Part shown: piece after piece, positions 11,132 through 31,648 of the stretch
Position numbering within the stretch: position 1 is the stretch's first letter
How the letters are laid out: each line of letters begins with the position of its first letter
DNA from: Akkermansiaceae bacterium
GTDB taxonomy: Bacteria; Verrucomicrobiota; Verrucomicrobiia; Verrucomicrobiales; Akkermansiaceae
Assembly: GCA_015062015.1 (NCBI GenBank)
Contig: SUVM01000004.1
Coordinates: forward strand, 1 to 40,560
Direction: 5' to 3'
DNA: 40,560 bases
Position numbers and translations under genes: made by a program
The notes under the pieces: model-generated
What the model was told of the DNA's origin: nothing
The model's database searches: none
What the model saw: only the letters and a program-made list of their open reading frames with translations

Positions 11132-12601
11132 ATGGAAGACAGCAAACAGGGGGGCGATACGCCCTTTGACCTTACCGAGCTGACCGGTTTCCGGTTTGGA
11201 CCCGCTTGGGCTAAACCGGGGGCTGATACTGCATCTACTCTACCGACTATGCACACCTTTGAACGAGGCGAACGCCGCAGTGGTTCCAAACGTGGGGCAT
11301 TTGACCGCGAGCCTCGCTTCAGCACCCCCGATGGTGCGCAAAACGCTAAACGCCCATTCCGCAAAGACGGAGGACGCCGCCCCGAGCGTGGCAACCGAGA
11401 TGCCCGCACAGAGCGCCCCAAGCGCGAGCTGCCCGCCCCGGCAGAAGGCTACCGTGTAGAGCTGCGTCCCACCAACGGCATTTTAGAAATCTTCAGCAAA
11501 GAGATTCAAAAACAGAAGCGCGCCCTCTCCCTCTTGGATTTATCGCGCATCGTCATGGCGGGCAAAGATCGCTATGATTTGGTGTTCATGAAATTGGAGA
11601 ACGGCAATATGCTCATCCACTCCACCAAGGAAGACGGTGCATGCTGGCTGACAGAGGCAGAAGCCATCTCTTACATGTGGAACGCCCCGTGGTTTGCCGA
11701 GCTTTATACCGAAGAAGAGGTGGAAACCGAAGCCCCCAAAGGCAATTTTACCGCTATTGCCGTGTGCCAACTGGGCGGAGAAATTGTAGGGCCCGTCAAC
11801 TGGCACGGCTACCAAGCCGCCCTCATGAACCTCTACCGCTCTAAATATGCCAATATGGCGCTCGATGCATTCAAAAACCGCATCACCTTAGACAAAACCG
11901 AGGAAACCATTGCCACTTGGCTGAGCAGCGCCGGCAAAAAGAAAGTGTGGAAACCCACCCGAGAAGGAGCCGAAGAAATCCTGTTGGAAGACACCAAAGC
12001 AGTGGAAGCGGACTTTGTTGCCAACCATTACAACACCGTATATGAGACGGTAGATAAAGTATTTATCAACGGTGCTACCCCCCGCAAGAAACTTTCCCCC
12101 GGTATAGCAGCCCACCAAGCCACCTTGTCGGACCGCACACGCCGCTCTCCGCAAATGCTTATCCCCAACCTTTGCCATGGGTTAGCCCGCCACCACATGC
12201 CCATTTATAAGTGGCAAGGCAACCACTACACCGGCCCGAGCCGCGTACGCAGTATACCCGAGGACACCGTATTGGCAGACCGCATGATGGCCATTGTAAA
12301 CTGGAGCAAAGAGAACTCCGGCAAAAAGGTGGAGGCCATGTTTGCAGAGCTCTCCGGGGTACCTGCCGGTACGGATGAAGAAAGCAAAAAGGCGGCATCC
12401 GATGCCTATGCTCCTTTTGCCGCAGACATGATTTGGTTGTTGGAGCAGGGATTTATTGTCGTAACGAGCGACAACTCCATTTGGTACCCCAAGGGAGAAG
12501 CTGCCCCTACCCCCGCCAAACCGGAGCCCCGCAAACGCCACAACAAGCGTAAAGCTACGGCAAAAAAGACGCAGGACGAAGCCCCGAAGCCGGAGGCATA
12601 A
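11132..12601 (+). CDS. Conserved-looking protein of unknown function with low-complexity basic N-terminus
   Basis: 489-aa ORF; Arg/Lys-rich 50-110 region (GDRRPERGNRDARTERPKRE-like), structured core, Lys/Pro-rich tail (KPEPRKRHNKRKATAKK). Confidence 0.8.
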   Translation: MEDSKQGGDTPFDLTELTGFRFGPAWAKPGADTASTLPTMHTFERGERRSGSKRGAFDREPRFSTPDGAQNAKRPFRKDGGRRPERGNRDARTERPKRELPAPAEGYRVELRPTNGILEIFSKEIQKQKRALSLLDLSRIVMAGKDRYDLVFMKLENGNMLIHSTKEDGACWLTEAEAISYMWNAPWFAELYTEEEVETEAPKGNFTAIAVCQLGGEIVGPVNWHGYQAALMNLYRSKYANMALDAFKNRITLDKTEETIATWLSSAGKKKVWKPTREGAEEILLEDTKAVEADFVANHYNTVYETVDKVFINGATPRKKLSPGIAAHQATLSDRTRRSPQMLIPNLCHGLARHHMPIYKWQGNHYTGPSRVRSIPEDTVLADRMMAIVNWSKENSGKKVEAMFAELSGVPAGTDEESKKAASDAYAPFAADMIWLLEQGFIVVTSDNSIWYPKGEAAPTPAKPEPRKRHNKRKATAKKTQDEAPKPEA

Positions 12602-25012: not shown

Positions 25013-25055
25013 ACGGCTTCAGCGTCTACCCAACGGGGGCGTTGAAGCCGTTTCT
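25013..25055 (+). terminator. Rho-independent terminator after the RND operon
   Basis: ACGGCTTCAGCG ... CGTTGAAGCCGT then TTCTCTT. Confidence 0.75.
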
Positions 25056-25079: not shown

Positions 25080-25108
25080 TTGACGCGTAGGCGGGCATGT
25101 GGTACACT
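25080..25108 (+). promoter_or_regulatory. Promoter TTGACG-17-TACACT for the GTPase/GAP1 operon
   Basis: -35 at 25080-25085, -10 at 25103-25108, ATG at 25129. Confidence 0.65.
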
Positions 25109-25128: not shown

Positions 25129-26856
25129 ATGAATGATCAATTATACATCTACGACTGCCTCACCGGCAAACTCCGTGTTTCAAATGGTGATTTCATGGCC
25201 ATAGGTGCAGGTAAACAAAACACCTTCCGCATTAAAACAGAGGCAGAAAGTGCCGGTGTCTTTGCTCAACGCAATGGGGTATGCCGCTTCTTCCCGCATA
25301 ACAAACACTATACATACTCCATTAATTCCAAACAGGTTTCTACGCCTACACTCATCAAACCGGAGAACTTTTACCTGCTGGTGCTCAGCGGCGGGCTCAT
25401 TATCGCGTGGTTTGGCAGCGACGACTCCCGCCCCGATTTCGGCAACTTTGACCCCAATTGCTGGTACATTTACACCCCGGAGACAGACCAATGGAGCGAC
25501 GCCTTGGATTTAGAACTGGTGCTGAGCCGCAGCAAACAATCCCCGGGGGAATCGTTAGCAACTTTTGATGGTTTGGGGCACAATGCCTACCTGCTGTCCG
25601 ACCTTCAACAAGTAGCAGATTTTTACCTCAACTCTACCGACTACAAAGATAAATTAAACAGCCCGGCAGATAACCCACGCAAAAACGGGTTCCGCTGCCC
25701 CTCTTGCCACGAACTCTTCAGCGCAGAGCAAGTGCTGGGCATTGCCGTACATCCGCAACTTCGCGGCGACATCTACTTGGGGGAAAATGCCATGCAACGC
25801 TTTACCCCTGCAAAATATAATGATAAAGGACAAGCCTTGGATGAAATGGGAGCACAATGCAGCGAGTTTGCCTGCCCGCACTGCCACCACAAGCTCCCCC
25901 CGTTTTTTGAGCAAACCACCCACCACCATATCACCATACTGGGTGCGCCGACAGCCGGCAAAGTATATTACCAAGCAGCCCTCATTCACCAGTTAGAGAG
26001 AGAGCTGCCCCGGGACTTCAACATCCCGTTCCGAGATGCAACCCCGGAAAGCAATACCGCGCTCAACAACATGCGTATTCGCACCTTTTATTCCTCCACG
26101 CCGGAGGAATTCCGCGAAGGCCGAGACATGATGCACCATGCCTTACGCCGTAAAGTATGGCGTAACAACGTCTTTGAGCTTGTACCCCGCCCCTTTATCT
26201 ACAACCTCACCAAAGAAAGCAGCGCACACTCCCTGATTTTTTACAACACCGGAAACCGCGAATCCGCTCAGCCCGTTTTACCGCAAATCCGCAAAGGAGA
26301 AGCGGATGCCATCTTCTATCTGTATGACCCGACACTGGAGCCGGCATTCCGAGAAGTGATTCGAGATTTTGCCACCATCCCGCAACAAGCCCCTTGCTCA
26401 AACACCGTTTGCAGCCAATCTCAATTATTATCCGTGGCAGAGATGCACATCCGCACTGCTCTTAACGTGCCGCCGGGAGAAAAAATCAACATCCCCATTT
26501 CCGTTATCGTTACCAAGTGCGACATTTGGAAACAGCTACTGGGGCCGGAGCCCCTGCTCCCCATTGTGCGCAACGGGCGCCTCAAACCGCAAAATCTCTT
26601 GCGTAACTCATTGCGTATAAGAGACCTCCTTTTTCATTTGGCCCCGGAGGTATGCTCTCAGGCAGAATCGCTCTCCACGCGCGTTAACTACTTTGCGGTT
26701 TCCTCCTTCGGTAACCCGCCGGAAGAGTTTAGCGACGAGCTCACCGGCGAGACCTATATAGCCCCGGCAGGCGGTAGGCTTTCCCCGTTCCATGTAACAG
26801 ACCCGGTGCTGTGGTTCCTGTACAATACGGATATGGGCATGTTCCCCGAAAACTAA
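25129..26856 (+). CDS. FHA-like / zinc-ribbon / degenerate double-GTPase (DO-GTPase2-like) protein
   Basis: N-terminal beta-rich FHA-like segment; Zn ribbon CPSC...C..CPHC; P-loop-like ITILGAPTAGKVYYQAALIHQL; LIFYNTGNRE at the G3 position; VIVTKCDIW at the G4 position; NYFAVSSFG near the C-terminus. Confidence 0.7.
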   Translation: MNDQLYIYDCLTGKLRVSNGDFMAIGAGKQNTFRIKTEAESAGVFAQRNGVCRFFPHNKHYTYSINSKQVSTPTLIKPENFYLLVLSGGLIIAWFGSDDSRPDFGNFDPNCWYIYTPETDQWSDALDLELVLSRSKQSPGESLATFDGLGHNAYLLSDLQQVADFYLNSTDYKDKLNSPADNPRKNGFRCPSCHELFSAEQVLGIAVHPQLRGDIYLGENAMQRFTPAKYNDKGQALDEMGAQCSEFACPHCHHKLPPFFEQTTHHHITILGAPTAGKVYYQAALIHQLERELPRDFNIPFRDATPESNTALNNMRIRTFYSSTPEEFREGRDMMHHALRRKVWRNNVFELVPRPFIYNLTKESSAHSLIFYNTGNRESAQPVLPQIRKGEADAIFYLYDPTLEPAFREVIRDFATIPQQAPCSNTVCSQSQLLSVAEMHIRTALNVPPGEKINIPISVIVTKCDIWKQLLGPEPLLPIVRNGRLKPQNLLRNSLRIRDLLFHLAPEVCSQAESLSTRVNYFAVSSFGNPPEEFSDELTGETYIAPAGGRLSPFHVTDPVLWFLYNTDMGMFPEN

Positions 26857-26878
26857 ACCATACTCGCCGTACGCTGCA

Positions 26879-28381
26879 ATGTCTTACCAACTTATCCACG
26901 CCAAACAAAAGAGCGAAGCCTCCGATACCACCCCCCCGGAGCTTTGCGACATTGCATGCAGTACCACAATCCCGGCTTCTCTTAAGGAGGCTCTGGCCCA
27001 GCTTAGCCACAAGCTATACTGCAACTACACACATACCCAAGGCTGCATATACAGCTACCGCATCTTAACCTGCGATGCCACCCCCTACCACATACTCACT
27101 GCTGCAACCCGGCAGCCGGCGCATTCGGCATACAATTATATTTGCCACCATACGGTTTTAACGGAAGACGAGGTAATAACGCTCAGGCGCAATAGTGCAC
27201 GGCCCACCCCTGCCGGTATCATCTGTGCGCTGCAAAGCTCGGGCCATTGGTACACGCAGCAAACCACCTTGCCGCCACAAGCAGATAAAGAGCCCATGCT
27301 GTCGGCCTCTCAATTACCGGATGCCCGCACACAACCCACATGGAAAGAACTTACAGGCCACAAGCGTAATGCGGCTGTGTTGCTTACCCCACCATACACA
27401 AGTGCAACGCTGGTATGCTGTCCGCCGCGCATCACAGAGCAAGAGCGGCTTTTACTGTTGCACGAGGCTACATGGCTTATGCCCACCCGGGGATGGGGCA
27501 AAACCTTCTGCACGGAATGCACCGATAAAACGGCAGATTTTCATGTAACGGAAATCATGCTGACCACCACCCGGTCTGAACAGGCTGCAGCCATAGCCCA
27601 TACACAACGCATACCGATGCTACAGCTTTACCATGGGTTAAACCTACACTTGCAGGATGATGCCAACGGGTTAAGTACCGTTGCTCATCCCCTTGCGGCA
27701 AACCCGCAACCGCAAGTTACCCCCCAAGCTTACCCCACGGCAGAACACGGCACTAACATTTATAAATACACGGAAGCCCCGGATCACGAATGCTTCTTTA
27801 TACCTCCGCCTAAGCATAAAAAATGGCGTTCTTTCAAATATATCGGCATTTTGTTCGGGGTAACAACTGCTGTATACATCGTGGTATGCCATTATGCCGA
27901 CTTCTTTTCGCCACAACCGGAGGCTCCACAAGCCCCCGCTGTTACGGCAACCGCTAACCAAGCAATTCAACAATTCCGAGACATTCTTCGCCGACAAGAT
28001 TCTACAGATGACGCACTCAACAAACTGCATGCCCGCTTGCGAGATTCTGATGCCGCACCCTATGCAAGAAACCTGGCAGATTGCATTCGAATTTTAACCA
28101 CGGATATCAACAAAACCCACGGGCACCCCGAAAATCTGCTTTTCTTGGCAGAACAGGCCAAAGCCATGCACATACCCGTTGCGGATATTGCAAACTATTA
28201 CCTCTTACGGGTGATTAAAGATTACCCGGTAGAAGAATGGGTGGCACACAACACCACCGCACCTGCAAACGCTGCATGGGCACGCTTCTTTAATACCTAC
28301 CCCAACATGGTGAAAGAGTGGCAAACCCATGCAGATTACCATGCTCACATAGAGCCGCTTATCCGTAGGCATCTCCCATAA
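26879..28381 (+). CDS. GTPase-associated protein 1 (GAP1-N2/M-like) with C-terminal TM segment
   Basis: YSYRILTCDATPYHILTAATRQPAHSAYNYICHHTVLTEDEVITLRRNSARPTPAGIICAL and QPTWKELTGHKRNAAVLLTPPYTSATLVCCPP..EATWLMPTRGWGKTFCTE match my recollection of the GAP1-N2/GAP1-M layout; TM at YIGILFGVTTAVYIVVC. Confidence 0.6.
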   Translation: MSYQLIHAKQKSEASDTTPPELCDIACSTTIPASLKEALAQLSHKLYCNYTHTQGCIYSYRILTCDATPYHILTAATRQPAHSAYNYICHHTVLTEDEVITLRRNSARPTPAGIICALQSSGHWYTQQTTLPPQADKEPMLSASQLPDARTQPTWKELTGHKRNAAVLLTPPYTSATLVCCPPRITEQERLLLLHEATWLMPTRGWGKTFCTECTDKTADFHVTEIMLTTTRSEQAAAIAHTQRIPMLQLYHGLNLHLQDDANGLSTVAHPLAANPQPQVTPQAYPTAEHGTNIYKYTEAPDHECFFIPPPKHKKWRSFKYIGILFGVTTAVYIVVCHYADFFSPQPEAPQAPAVTATANQAIQQFRDILRRQDSTDDALNKLHARLRDSDAAPYARNLADCIRILTTDINKTHGHPENLLFLAEQAKAMHIPVADIANYYLLRVIKDYPVEEWVAHNTTAPANAAWARFFNTYPNMVKEWQTHADYHAHIEPLIRRHLP

Positions 28382-28404
28382 ATTCTCTCCCACTTCCTGC
28401 GCAG

Positions 28405-30546
28405 ATGGCTACCAAAAAAACGCAACACCGAGATCGGGAACTACGGCGCCTGGCACTTGCAGAACGTTGGGATGATGTGAAAGTGCTCCTGATGGCGCGG
28501 CTGGATAAAAATCCGGAAGACACCGCAGCCAAGGCAGAATTGCAGCGCTTGGTAGAGGGGCGCCCCTTGCGTATAACCCTCTCTGCGGCAGAACGCCTTG
28601 CTGCAGATGCAGATGATGCAGAACAGGCTTTGTCTCTTCTGCAACGCATACACCCGGTCGATTCTCTTAAAAACCTGCCTAGGCAAGAGTTAAAGCAACT
28701 GCTGCAACAAATTGGGCCAAAAGAGGCTATCATCTCAAAAGCAAAGCGCACTTGCTCTGCCGCACAGCAAGCTTATGTTGCGGAAATCAAAAAACGCCTT
28801 CGCAAGTTTTCTTCTGCATACACCCGCAAATTCATACGCCGCAGTGCCCTTGTTATGCTGTGTATCGGCACCATAATCGGGGCGCGCATGTACCTCAAAC
28901 AACGTGCAGAACAGGCCGCTGCCGCGCTTACTGCCGCTATTCAACAAAAAAACCTCCACGAGCTGAAACGTGCCAAACAAGAGGCTGATACCAAAATCAA
29001 CCGCTTCTTCTGCCCGGAAATTACAGAGGGCCTCGCGGCTGCACAGGATTGGGAAAACGCTATATTCATCGAATTTAAGAAGCTACGCGAAATTGTGGCA
29101 GAACTGGAAACAGGCAAACGCCACTACGCCGGACTGACCGCAAGCGAATTACAACAGATAGACAGGCGCGTACACCAACTCGTCATCGGTAAAGATGACT
29201 TGCTCCCCAAATGGCAAAAACTATACAAGCAGGAAACGCTGCGACTCGAAGCACTCAAAAAACAACTTGTATCTCAACTGGAAGCAAGCATGCCGCAACA
29301 ACCGGTGTTTTGCGGCGAGCCCGATGCCGATGAAGCCGCCCTTACGCAATACATTCATGCCCTGCGCCTCAAAGAAACAGAAGCCCGCAAACTTATTACA
29401 GAATACGCCGCAGATACAAAACTCCTCCCCCCCATTCTACAGGCGCTGGCCTCTGCGCGGCAGATAAAAGAGGAAATCCAACAAATGCGTAAACTGCTTT
29501 CGGCATTGCCCACCTTCACACAATATGAAGATTATTACCGTAGCTGGCAACAATTTTGCCCGCAACAATACCCGGCCGCCATCCGCTTAGCCGCTGCAAA
29601 AAACACATTACCGCAGCCCGAAGATATCAAATACCATGTGCAGGACCCCACCGGCAACTACACGGCACAGCTCATTAAAGCCGCAGAGGCCTGCTTAGTG
29701 CACGGGCAAAGCTCATTTACAGCGGCATACCCCGCCACGCAAGAACAAATCCATATACCGCAAGATCTCTTCACAGCCCCCTCTTACCTATACAAAATAT
29801 ATATATTAAAGAAGCAAGACGGCACCACTTGGTACAGCACCATTGAACCCGTGGTAGACTCCAGCAATTTTATCATCTTTACACGCAGCAGCATAGACCC
29901 GCACTTCTCCCCGGAGCACAATAAGGCAGAGCTCCGGAATGACGGCAGCGTAACGCTCAGCTACACGGATTCCTCCCACCTGCTGCCTAAGCTCAACATA
30001 CAAAAAGAAGATTTTTTTCTCAACGCCAATTTACCCCGGCTACTCACCGATACGCTCAATTTGCGCCAAGGCAGCCACCCGGCCTTAGCGCAGGCTTACA
30101 TCTACCAATGCCTGATGCGGCTCATCGCCAAGCACCCGTACGAGCTGCTCAACGGCATCAAATTCTCGCCCACTCTGCGGCAACACGCAGCCTCGTTCAA
30201 AGCCTTGGTTCAAAAGCATAAAATCGAGCTCTACCCCGGCTGTTGGCTACACCAAACCGAGAAGATGCGGGCGGCAGAGCACGATTTTGCAGAGTGGTTC
30301 CGCAAGCGCAGAGGCCACGACTACCGAGCCGAAATGGCCCGCAACTTCTTGGCCACCTTTCATGTACAGGCTCAATATTGCGGTTTTGTAGGGGATAACG
30401 GGCACCCCGTATTTTGCCGCCCCATCCCCCCCGATTGCACGCTATGGTATGTAACGGCAGAAGGAATTACCGGCAGCCGGGAGCACAGTCTACCCGGGGT
30501 GCTACCTTATTCCCCGATTTTCTTGGAAAAACGCACCGCCCCATAA
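28405..30546 (+). CDS. Coiled-coil protein with one TM segment, third gene of the GTPase/GAP1 operon
   Basis: 713 aa; alpha-helical N-terminal region, TM RSALVMLCIGTIIGARMYL, long coiled coil, C-terminal domain of unknown fold. Confidence 0.75.
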   Translation: MATKKTQHRDRELRRLALAERWDDVKVLLMARLDKNPEDTAAKAELQRLVEGRPLRITLSAAERLAADADDAEQALSLLQRIHPVDSLKNLPRQELKQLLQQIGPKEAIISKAKRTCSAAQQAYVAEIKKRLRKFSSAYTRKFIRRSALVMLCIGTIIGARMYLKQRAEQAAAALTAAIQQKNLHELKRAKQEADTKINRFFCPEITEGLAAAQDWENAIFIEFKKLREIVAELETGKRHYAGLTASELQQIDRRVHQLVIGKDDLLPKWQKLYKQETLRLEALKKQLVSQLEASMPQQPVFCGEPDADEAALTQYIHALRLKETEARKLITEYAADTKLLPPILQALASARQIKEEIQQMRKLLSALPTFTQYEDYYRSWQQFCPQQYPAAIRLAAAKNTLPQPEDIKYHVQDPTGNYTAQLIKAAEACLVHGQSSFTAAYPATQEQIHIPQDLFTAPSYLYKIYILKKQDGTTWYSTIEPVVDSSNFIIFTRSSIDPHFSPEHNKAELRNDGSVTLSYTDSSHLLPKLNIQKEDFFLNANLPRLLTDTLNLRQGSHPALAQAYIYQCLMRLIAKHPYELLNGIKFSPTLRQHAASFKALVQKHKIELYPGCWLHQTEKMRAAEHDFAEWFRKRRGHDYRAEMARNFLATFHVQAQYCGFVGDNGHPVFCRPIPPDCTLWYVTAEGITGSREHSLPGVLPYSPIFLEKRTAP

Positions 30547-30548
30547 GC

Positions 30549-31040
30549 ATGAAAATCGCTATTTTATCCGACGTGCACGACAACGTCAGCAATTTGCTGA
30601 CTGCGCTGTATTACGCCGAAAAACAGCACTGCACGCACCTGCTGTATCTGGGCGATATAGCAGAGGTATCCACCCTGCGCGTCTTGCTCGACTCGTGGAA
30701 CCACCCTGCGGATATCGTTTTCGGAAACAATGAATATGACCTGCGCGCTCACACGGAACTGGTGCAACAGTACCCGCTTGCCTGCCACCATGGAGATGAG
30801 GGGACGCTGTGCCTGCAAGGGCGCCGTATCTACATCTCCCATTACCCCCGCAATGCTTTTATAGCCGCAGATTGCGGGGACTACGATGCCGTCTTTTACG
30901 GCCATACCCATGTGGCAGAGCAAAGGCAACACAGGCAAACGCTGGTAGCCAACCCCGGAGAAGTAGGTGGCATACGCCGTTTACCCGGCTTTGGGGTGTA
31001 TGATACGGCAATAAACGAAATGAGCATTCACCCCCTCTGA
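30549..31040 (+). CDS. YfcE/MJ0936-type metallophosphodiesterase
   Basis: MKIAILSDVHDNVSNLLTAL, LYLGDIAEV, VFGNNEYD, CHHGDE, FYGHTHVAEQ, LVANPGEVGGIRR. Confidence 0.88.
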   Translation: MKIAILSDVHDNVSNLLTALYYAEKQHCTHLLYLGDIAEVSTLRVLLDSWNHPADIVFGNNEYDLRAHTELVQQYPLACHHGDEGTLCLQGRRIYISHYPRNAFIAADCGDYDAVFYGHTHVAEQRQHRQTLVANPGEVGGIRRLPGFGVYDTAINEMSIHPL

Positions 31041-31048
31041 ATACCGCT

Positions 31049-31648
31049 ATGGACTACCAATGCTATACCTATTGCCCATCCGGTGCAGAGCGGCTCCCCT
31101 ACCATATACTCGATGCGCAAGAGCAAATGCTCCCCCCGATAAAACGCTGGGCCAGGCTTCTGCTGCGGCAGGAATTAGCCGCACGCTTAGGAAAAGCCCC
31201 CCAAAAAATACAGTTCTTCCGCAACGAGCACGGCAAGCCGTTTGTGGAAGGGGTACACTTCAACATCAGCCATTCCGGCAACAAATTATGCATGGCTTTT
31301 CATACAAGCCCCATCGGGGTGGATATTCAGCAATGCCTCAAAAAAAACTCTATTTCCAAACTCGCGGCGCACATCATGTGCCCGCAACAACTGCAGCACT
31401 TTACCGACAACGGCTGCCGACCGCAAGAATTTTACACCTGTTGGTGCATAAGCGAAGCCCTGGTGAAATATTACGGCGAAAGCATCTGGAAAGCGCAAAC
31501 ATACCCCTTTATTCTGCACCACCATGGCATAGAATTTTTATTTGAACAAGCGCCTGACGTAGAACTATTCCGGCCGGCAGAGGGGTACTGCGGTGCGCTT
31601 GCATACAAACATACAGCTTGCCGACACCGCGTACAAGGGGTAGAATAA
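31049..31648 (+). CDS. 4'-phosphopantetheinyl transferase superfamily protein (Sfp-like)
   Basis: NEHGKPFVEGVHFNISHSGNKLCMAF, IGVDIQQC, CWCISEALVKYYG. Confidence 0.87.
   Translation: MDYQCYTYCPSGAERLPYHILDAQEQMLPPIKRWARLLLRQELAARLGKAPQKIQFFRNEHGKPFVEGVHFNISHSGNKLCMAFHTSPIGVDIQQCLKKNSISKLAAHIMCPQQLQHFTDNGCRPQEFYTCWCISEALVKYYGESIWKAQTYPFILHHHGIEFLFEQAPDVELFRPAEGYCGALAYKHTACRHRVQGVE

Follow-up and report, generated by a model that had tools for sequence, protein, structure and literature searches.

A divergent GAP1-N2-type operon of Akkermansiaceae with a probable pseudo-GTPase and a putative longin-like partner

Herein, we analyzed an operon of three genes, called A, B, and C, in a window of 40,560 nucleotides from an Akkermansiaceae bacterium (assembly GCA_015062015.1, contig SUVM01000004.1, positions 1 to 40,560 of the forward strand; the window is this whole stretch of DNA). 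A first-pass annotation, made from the sequence letters, had described three co-directional open reading frames (ORFs) and placed the products of the first two among the DO-GTPase and GAP1 proteins. The ORFs, their coordinates, and the intergenic gaps of 22 and 23 nt were as described there:

25129..26856, + strand: gene A, DO-GTPase2-related protein of 575 amino acids (aa) with an FHA-like N-terminus, a zinc ribbon, and a degenerate GTPase domain (orthologue Pfam matches, alignment, and motif survey)
26879..28381, + strand: gene B, GAP1-N2-related bitopic membrane protein of 500 aa, a truncated form
28405..30546, + strand: gene C, bitopic scaffold protein of 713 aa

None of the three window proteins matched a Pfam or PADLOC model above the cut-off, and the domain calls were therefore tested through relatives. 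DO-GTPase2 (PF19993) was matched by 24 of 28 aligned A homologues, with a best value of 1.6e-7; the window's A was among the four without a match, which fits the degeneration of its GTPase motifs. GAP1-N2 (PF20013) was matched by B orthologues with E-values down to 1.5e-22, and the window's own B, itself below detection, is orthologous to these proteins. Among 37 genomes of the same genus, including that of the window, A was present in 28, B in all 28 and one more, and C in 29, and the three genes were co-encoded across Akkermansia and other Verrucomicrobiota. The orthologue matches and the co-encoding together indicate that A-B-C is, at the family level, a divergent GAP1-N2-type GTPase system of the kind described by Kaur 2020 (PMC7159879). 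The class proposed by the first-pass annotation was thus supported: profile searches of relatives recovered both the GTPase and the GAP1 similarity, and the homologues co-occurred.

For several species of the genus, searches of complete genomes recovered none of A, B, and C, and GAP1-N2 was not recovered there either. In two loci (L046 and L047), C occurred without A and B, adjoining phosphoglycerate kinase, while two genomes (G009 and G023) carried A and B without C, indicating that the parts of the operon are separable. PDB sequence profiles gave no relatives for A or GAP1-N2. Relatives of A were absent from the viral contigs searched and GAP1-N2-like matches from the plasmids searched; thus, no association with mobile elements was found. 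A more distant DO-GTPase cluster (L043:7434-16318), whose other genes encode a double-zinc-ribbon protein and a fusion of HSP70 with vWA, resembles the HSP70 theme of Kaur 2020.

Gene A was soluble according to a hydropathy survey of some 70 orthologous loci, and its features were as follows:

25129..25443, + strand: FHA-like N-terminal region, residues 1-105 (weak; match of orthologue L041 and alignment)
25696..25884, + strand: zinc ribbon, CxxC 190/193 and CxxC 249/252 (invariant cysteines)
25942..25965, + strand: degenerate P-loop GAPTAGKV, residues 272-279, family pattern GxxxxGK[ST] (motif survey)
26245..26259, + strand: lost switch II, NTGNR in place of DNAGE, residues 373-377 (motif survey)
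26512..26523, + strand: retained G4 motif TKCD, residues 462-465 (alignment and motif survey)

The zinc ribbon named in the first-pass annotation was borne out, as C190, C193, C249, and C252 were invariant in the 28 homologues. Its FHA-like N-terminus fared less well, with threshold-level support in a single distant orthologue (L041: FHA 5.5e-4, Yop-YscD_cpl 1.1e-6). As for the P-loop NTPase core, membership in the DO-GTPase2 family stood, but the P-loop serine and the whole of switch II are gone from the window's A. By eye, WYxY...W.GP...L at 25462-25623 (A residues 112-165), after the FHA-like region but before the zinc ribbon, resembles a GYF domain; a GYF-like domain at these residues had no support from Pfam.

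The family norms are GxxxxGK[ST] for the P-loop and D-x-A-G-E for switch II. The window's A lacks the conserved switch-II glutamate, carrying NTGNR and GKV, whereas orthologues carry DNAGE. Switch II was lost in all five members of the window's clade (the window with its four closest relatives), and the P-loop was degraded in all but L078, with the P-loop lysine also lost in L077. Despite the loss of switch II, this clade keeps the TKxD motif and the zinc ribbon. A second group without switch II (L079, L080, L089, and L122) mostly kept the P-loop and had a full-length B. When the 155 columns of A that are conserved in GTPase-intact Akkermansia were compared, only D373, A375, and G376 were lost throughout both groups. 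In addition, the G4 motif is TKxD in the window's clade versus GKxD in all 38 GTPase-intact relatives, a shift toward the canonical motif.

Switch II was lost at least twice, since a single origin was rejected in the approximately unbiased test (p-AU 4e-7) on a tree built from genes of the flanks, namely those for DnaA, ThiL, a 145-aa neighbor protein, the phosphoesterase, and the 4'-phosphopantetheinyl transferase (PPTase). The ORFs were intact in five species of the window's clade at 54-68% identity (one pair at 95%). Between L119 and L121, both without switch II, the ratio of nonsynonymous to synonymous substitution rates (dN/dS) in the GTPase domain was 0.065, a sign of strong purifying selection, indicating a working pseudo-GTPase and not a decaying gene. 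Judged from these sequences, A of the window's clade is very probably a functional protein without catalytic machinery.

B was predicted to be a single-pass membrane protein with the following features:

26879..27268, + strand: GAP1-N2 (predicted longin-like) domain, residues 1-130 (homology to PF20013-positive orthologues; model and Foldseek)
27113..27142, + strand: site of the lost loop GxD[YH][ST]xR, residues 79-88, QPAHSAYNYI in the window
27833..27889, + strand: single transmembrane (TM) helix, residues 319-337 (hydropathy)
27890..28378, + strand: helical extracytoplasmic part, ending at the linker before the domain that is lost relative to L079 residues 550-966 (model)

The hydropathy plans of B and C were the same in Akkermansia, Verrucomicrobiaceae (including Prosthecobacter), and Opitutales. 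For B, the plan consisted of ~310 cytosolic residues, one TM helix near residue 320, and then 0 to ~900 residues outside. Basic residues before the TM helices suggest that both proteins have the N-terminus inside and the C-terminus outside. The membrane location proposed in the first pass was upheld through orthologues, with TM helices at ~319-337 in B and ~140-165 in C whose positions are conserved across orthologues.

The window's B has 500 aa, versus about 930-970 aa in most relatives. AlphaFold modeled the full-length B of L079 (966 aa; mean predicted local distance difference test (pLDDT) 85.6) as an alpha/beta head followed by a small alpha/beta part, the TM helix, and a helical domain on the outside; a disordered linker (498-548) then leads to the last domain (550-966). 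Since the window's B ends at residue 500, at the linker position, it lacks one whole extracytoplasmic domain of ~400 aa. Similar truncations arose independently in several other lineages. Of the GAP1-N2/GAP1-M plus TM layout proposed earlier for B, GAP1-N2 was confirmed via orthologues and the TM anchor by hydropathy; neither GAP1-M nor GAP1-C was matched by Pfam in B of the window or its relatives, and the protein turned out to be truncated.

In the L079 model, the GAP1-N2 head has the topology b-b-a-b-b-b-a-a (b, strand; a, helix), which is the strand-helix order of a longin domain. Foldseek searches with this head returned the Lst4 longin domain with a probability of 0.96 (E-value 0.06) and the FLCN-FNIP2 GTPase-activating protein (GAP) complex with a probability of 0.89. 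The model is suggestive of a longin-like head as in the GAPs FLCN, NPRL2, and SMCR8. Longin GAPs use an arginine finger, which was seen by cryo-electron microscopy for SMCR8 and proposed for NPRL2 and FLCN (PMC8213707). Arg78 of NPRL2, in KKYSR-NALLFNL, was read as standing directly before strand 5, and the GAP1-N2 loop G-x-D-[YH]-[ST]-x-R occupies the corresponding position between strands 4 and 5. Neither a longin fold nor a GAP mechanism is mentioned in the paper that first described GAP1. In the window's B, the loop arginine is absent.

To relate the two proteins, we counted the loop arginine of B and the switch-II glutamate of A over the lineages of the tree. The arginine was kept in 44 lineages, all of which had an intact DNAGE, and no lineage had the arginine without the glutamate. 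Among the 26 lineages without the arginine, 20 had lost the glutamate or the whole motif and six had retained the glutamate. The tree implied 7-8 independent glutamate losses, of which five were required by well-supported branches, and all were confined to its arginine-less part, which makes up 43.5% of the total branch length (p about 1e-3 for co-loss, post hoc). Out of sample, the arginine was present in 30/30 GAP1-N2 proteins of distant genomes in the phylum, belonging to other families and classes, and DNAGE in 26/26 neighboring GTPases whose match covers switch II; in 25 of the latter, the P-loop was also covered and intact. Two other arginines of B were considered as the finger and rejected. 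Arg225, whose charge is reversed in all five members of clade I, is replaced by other residues in non-Akkermansia relatives, and the conserved Arg26 is lost in L096 and L099, which nevertheless have an intact GTPase.

C was predicted to have TPR-like helices at its N-terminus, a TM helix at ~140-165, a long helical region, an alpha/beta module, and the following C-terminal feature:

30352..30543, + strand: SH3-like beta domain, residues ~650-713 (model and Foldseek)

Hydropathy of the orthologous loci likewise gave a cytosolic helical part, one TM helix, and a large outside part. The window's own C did not reach the simple hydropathy threshold for its TM helix, the position of which is conserved in orthologues. 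The predicted model (pLDDT 89.4) was mostly helical and had no global structural match in the PDB by Foldseek. A match to the SH3-like small lipoprotein 2k57 (probability 1.00, TMt 0.68, E-value 0.56) was placed on the last ~60 residues from its length and all-beta character, so this end is probably an SH3-like beta domain, a C-terminus that the first-pass annotation had left unassigned. Its suggestion that the C-terminal domain might be an effector was not supported, as Pfam, PADLOC, and Foldseek revealed no effector domain or enzymatic fold in C. FNIII was absent from C and 22 relatives. The same genome also encodes a paralogue of C of 917 aa (contig C108, L031:11414-14167, - strand), which has a separate TM helix and shares the C-terminal region; the counterpart of this paralogue in L034 is encoded close to a gene for a Ser/Thr protein kinase.

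The surroundings of the operon included the following features:

25013..25051, + strand: terminator-like hairpin between the upstream RND operon and the A-B-C operon (RNA fold)
25080..25108, + strand: sigma-70-like promoter TTGACG-17-TACACT (frequency not above chance)
30549..31040, + strand: conserved neighbor, calcineurin-like phosphoesterase, YfcE-like (Pfam), adjoining the operon in most Akkermansia loci
31049..31648, + strand: conserved neighbor, 4'-phosphopantetheinyl transferase (Pfam)

The hairpin, previously called as a terminator upstream of A, was stable (-27 kcal/mol, z = -4.8), and 0/200 shuffles were as stable. The promoter sequence called at the same time exists, but similar sites were about as frequent in the region as expected by chance (9 found versus 5.7 +/- 2.5). 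The window's genome (G000) comprises 1.96 Mb and is 81% complete. The named members of its genus in the tree are Akkermansia or Akkermansiaceae metagenome-assembled genomes, mostly from gut or feces of ruminants, horses, rabbits, and other animals. The operon adjoins the phosphoesterase and PPTase genes in most Akkermansia loci and lies next to dnaA in the window's group, indicating a conserved chromosomal site outside any defense island. The phosphoesterase and PPTase were considered as effectors and rejected; as the phosphoesterase is also present in genomes without the operon, it is probably a mere neighbor. Elsewhere in the window, Pfam gave no match for an ORF of 489 aa (11132-12601), although the stretch around it is well annotated.

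In close species pairs, the flanks were mostly 92-97% identical, while parts of the operon fell to 65-86%. Between L119 and L121, the synonymous divergence (dS) was about 0.2 in the flanking RND and dnaA genes. It began to rise toward the C-terminus of A, reached 0.9-1.75 over the stretch from the beginning of B to mid-C, and was back to 0.1-0.2 in the last half of C. High dS between flanks of low dS indicates that a divergent allele was imported, which is more than fast protein evolution. Sequence comparison thus indicates that operon alleles are exchanged between close species, which fits a conflict locus or a surface-exposed complex alike. A mosaic was also seen between L110 and L115, where identity was 92-98% in B and the downstream flank but 75-84% in A and 70-81% in the C-terminal part of C; this suggests that A and the end of C were exchanged separately.

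Outside Akkermansia, in Verrucomicrobiaceae and Opitutales, A-B-C was followed by a GYF-domain TM protein and then by a MotA/TolQ/ExbB-type channel. Examples of GYF/DUF4190 or GYF/RDD TM proteins with a channel of this family downstream of A-B-C were found at L035:153-3523, L132:17220-18772, and L133:16914-19052. L035 also encodes two coiled-coil proteins, each with a single TM helix that begins with an Asp, which look ExbD-like. A link between a proton-driven motor and the DO-GTPase is possible in these groups.

Considering these results, we lean slightly toward the view that A, B, and C make up a switch complex anchored in the membrane and belonging to the DO-GTPase2/GAP1-N2 class, ancestrally a GTPase with an arginine-finger GAP, in which the GTPase has become a pseudo-GTPase in the window's lineage. 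Cytosolic A would dock on the single-pass proteins B and C, probably via the longin-like head of B. B would have its head inside and its tail outside, and C its scaffold inside and a large helical part outside. In the ancestral A, hydrolysis would require the switch-II glutamate, at the position of Ras Gln61, together with an arginine finger from the D[YH][ST]xR loop of B, and envelope cues sensed by B and C would set the nucleotide state. In the window's lineage, which has lost the arginine finger of B as well as the switch-II glutamate, DxxG motif, and P-loop serine of A, A may serve as a constitutive adaptor or structural subunit; with A a pseudo-GTPase, signaling would have to rest on assembly and disassembly of the complex. 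More tentatively, and at just short of an even chance, we propose that GAP1-N2 is a bacterial longin-fold GAP with a D[YH][ST]xR finger acting on DO-GTPases, comparable to NPRL2, FLCN, and SMCR8, and that Akkermansia at least twice turned the GTPase into a pseudo-GTPase scaffold maintained by selection.

Several results weigh against these proposals. The Foldseek E-values of the head were weak (0.06-0.3), PAS domains scored nearly as well (probability up to 0.92), and the modeled B is itself one of those without the arginine loop. Six lineages retain the glutamate without the arginine. With no more than 2-3 losses of the arginine, the co-loss test draws on few independent events, and it was set up once the data had been seen. 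The tree of A alone did not reject a single origin of the switch-II loss (p-AU 0.20). Finally, C has no effector or enzymatic fold that would point to an output.

The same data were weighed under other explanations. Membership in the DO-GTPase2/GAP1-N2 class, together with operon-wide allelic exchange between conserved flanks, the pattern expected of arms-race loci, makes a role in biological conflict plausible; an active NTP-dependent conflict system as published would have a GTPase that still switches and an anti-phage effector in C or its neighbors. However, the catalytic motifs are missing from the window's A, C has no effector fold, PADLOC gave no meaningful match, and the locus is fixed by the phosphoesterase and PPTase genes in Akkermansia and by dnaA in the window's group, away from any defense island. 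We therefore regard this explanation as distinctly unlikely. A vertically inherited core module of envelope physiology, serving stress or assembly, with a proton-motor-linked ancestor and outside parts that recombine for surface reasons, would account for the conserved chromosomal position, for the GYF-TM protein and MotA/TolQ/ExbB channel that follow the operon in Verrucomicrobiaceae and Opitutales, and for the dominance of extracytoplasmic parts in B and C. Yet the operon diverges very fast, is missing from complete genomes of several species, and persists in parts (A and B, or C alone) in others, indicating that it is not essential, and we consider such a module a serious but rather unlikely alternative.

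The loss of the catalytic motifs, of a whole domain of B, and of C or of A and B in some species would also be expected if relaxed selection were eroding a dispensable operon. Such a degenerating remnant, already disfavored, is very improbable given the intact ORFs in five diverged species of the clade, the dN/dS of the dead GTPase domain, and the retention of the zinc-ribbon cysteines and the G4 motif.

DO-GTPase/GAP1 systems are widespread, and we know of no tested mechanism for them. A GAP hypothesis that is testable and names its residues follows from the invariant loop arginine, from the joint loss of this arginine and the catalytic glutamate, and from the predicted longin-like fold. The window's lineage suggests that the complex can outlive its nucleotide switch, in which case the scaffold, and not GTP hydrolysis, would carry the function protected by selection there. 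If true, the pseudo-GTPase conversions are natural experiments on what the nucleotide cycle is for.

The GAP1-N2-type system of Kaur 2020 (PMC7159879) comprises a DO-GTPase of the TRAFAC clade with a conserved glutamate in Walker B/switch II and one or more N-terminal zinc ribbons, a GAP1-N2 protein encoded directly downstream with GAP1-M and GAP1-C after GAP1-N, an FNIII-repeat third component, and a variable effector. The window's operon shares with it a zinc-ribbon DO-GTPase2 upstream of a TM-bearing GAP1-N2 protein, occurrence in Verrucomicrobiota, membrane association, and a variable third component. Unlike that system, it has one GTPase, catalytically degenerate in its clade; a B without the loop arginine and truncated outside; a C that lacks FNIII repeats and has TPR-like helices and a long helical region ahead of a probable SH3-like end; and no SLATT, tubulin, HSP70, or kinase partner.

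Compared with the longin GAPs NPRL2 of GATOR1, FLCN-FNIP, and C9orf72-SMCR8, the GAP1-N2 proteins have no detectable sequence similarity, are bacterial, and carry a single longin-like head on a bitopic membrane protein as putative GAPs; their partner is a TRAFAC DO-GTPase with a glutamate instead of a glutamine. What they share with these GAPs is the predicted fold order and an invariant arginine before strand 5, and their GTPase partner loses its catalytic residue only where this arginine is lost. MglA/MglB is a bacterial GTPase-GAP pair in which MglB, a roadblock homodimer, is not known to use an arginine finger. Compared by description only, it shares with the A-B-C operon the pairing of a bacterial GTPase with an operon-encoded regulator.

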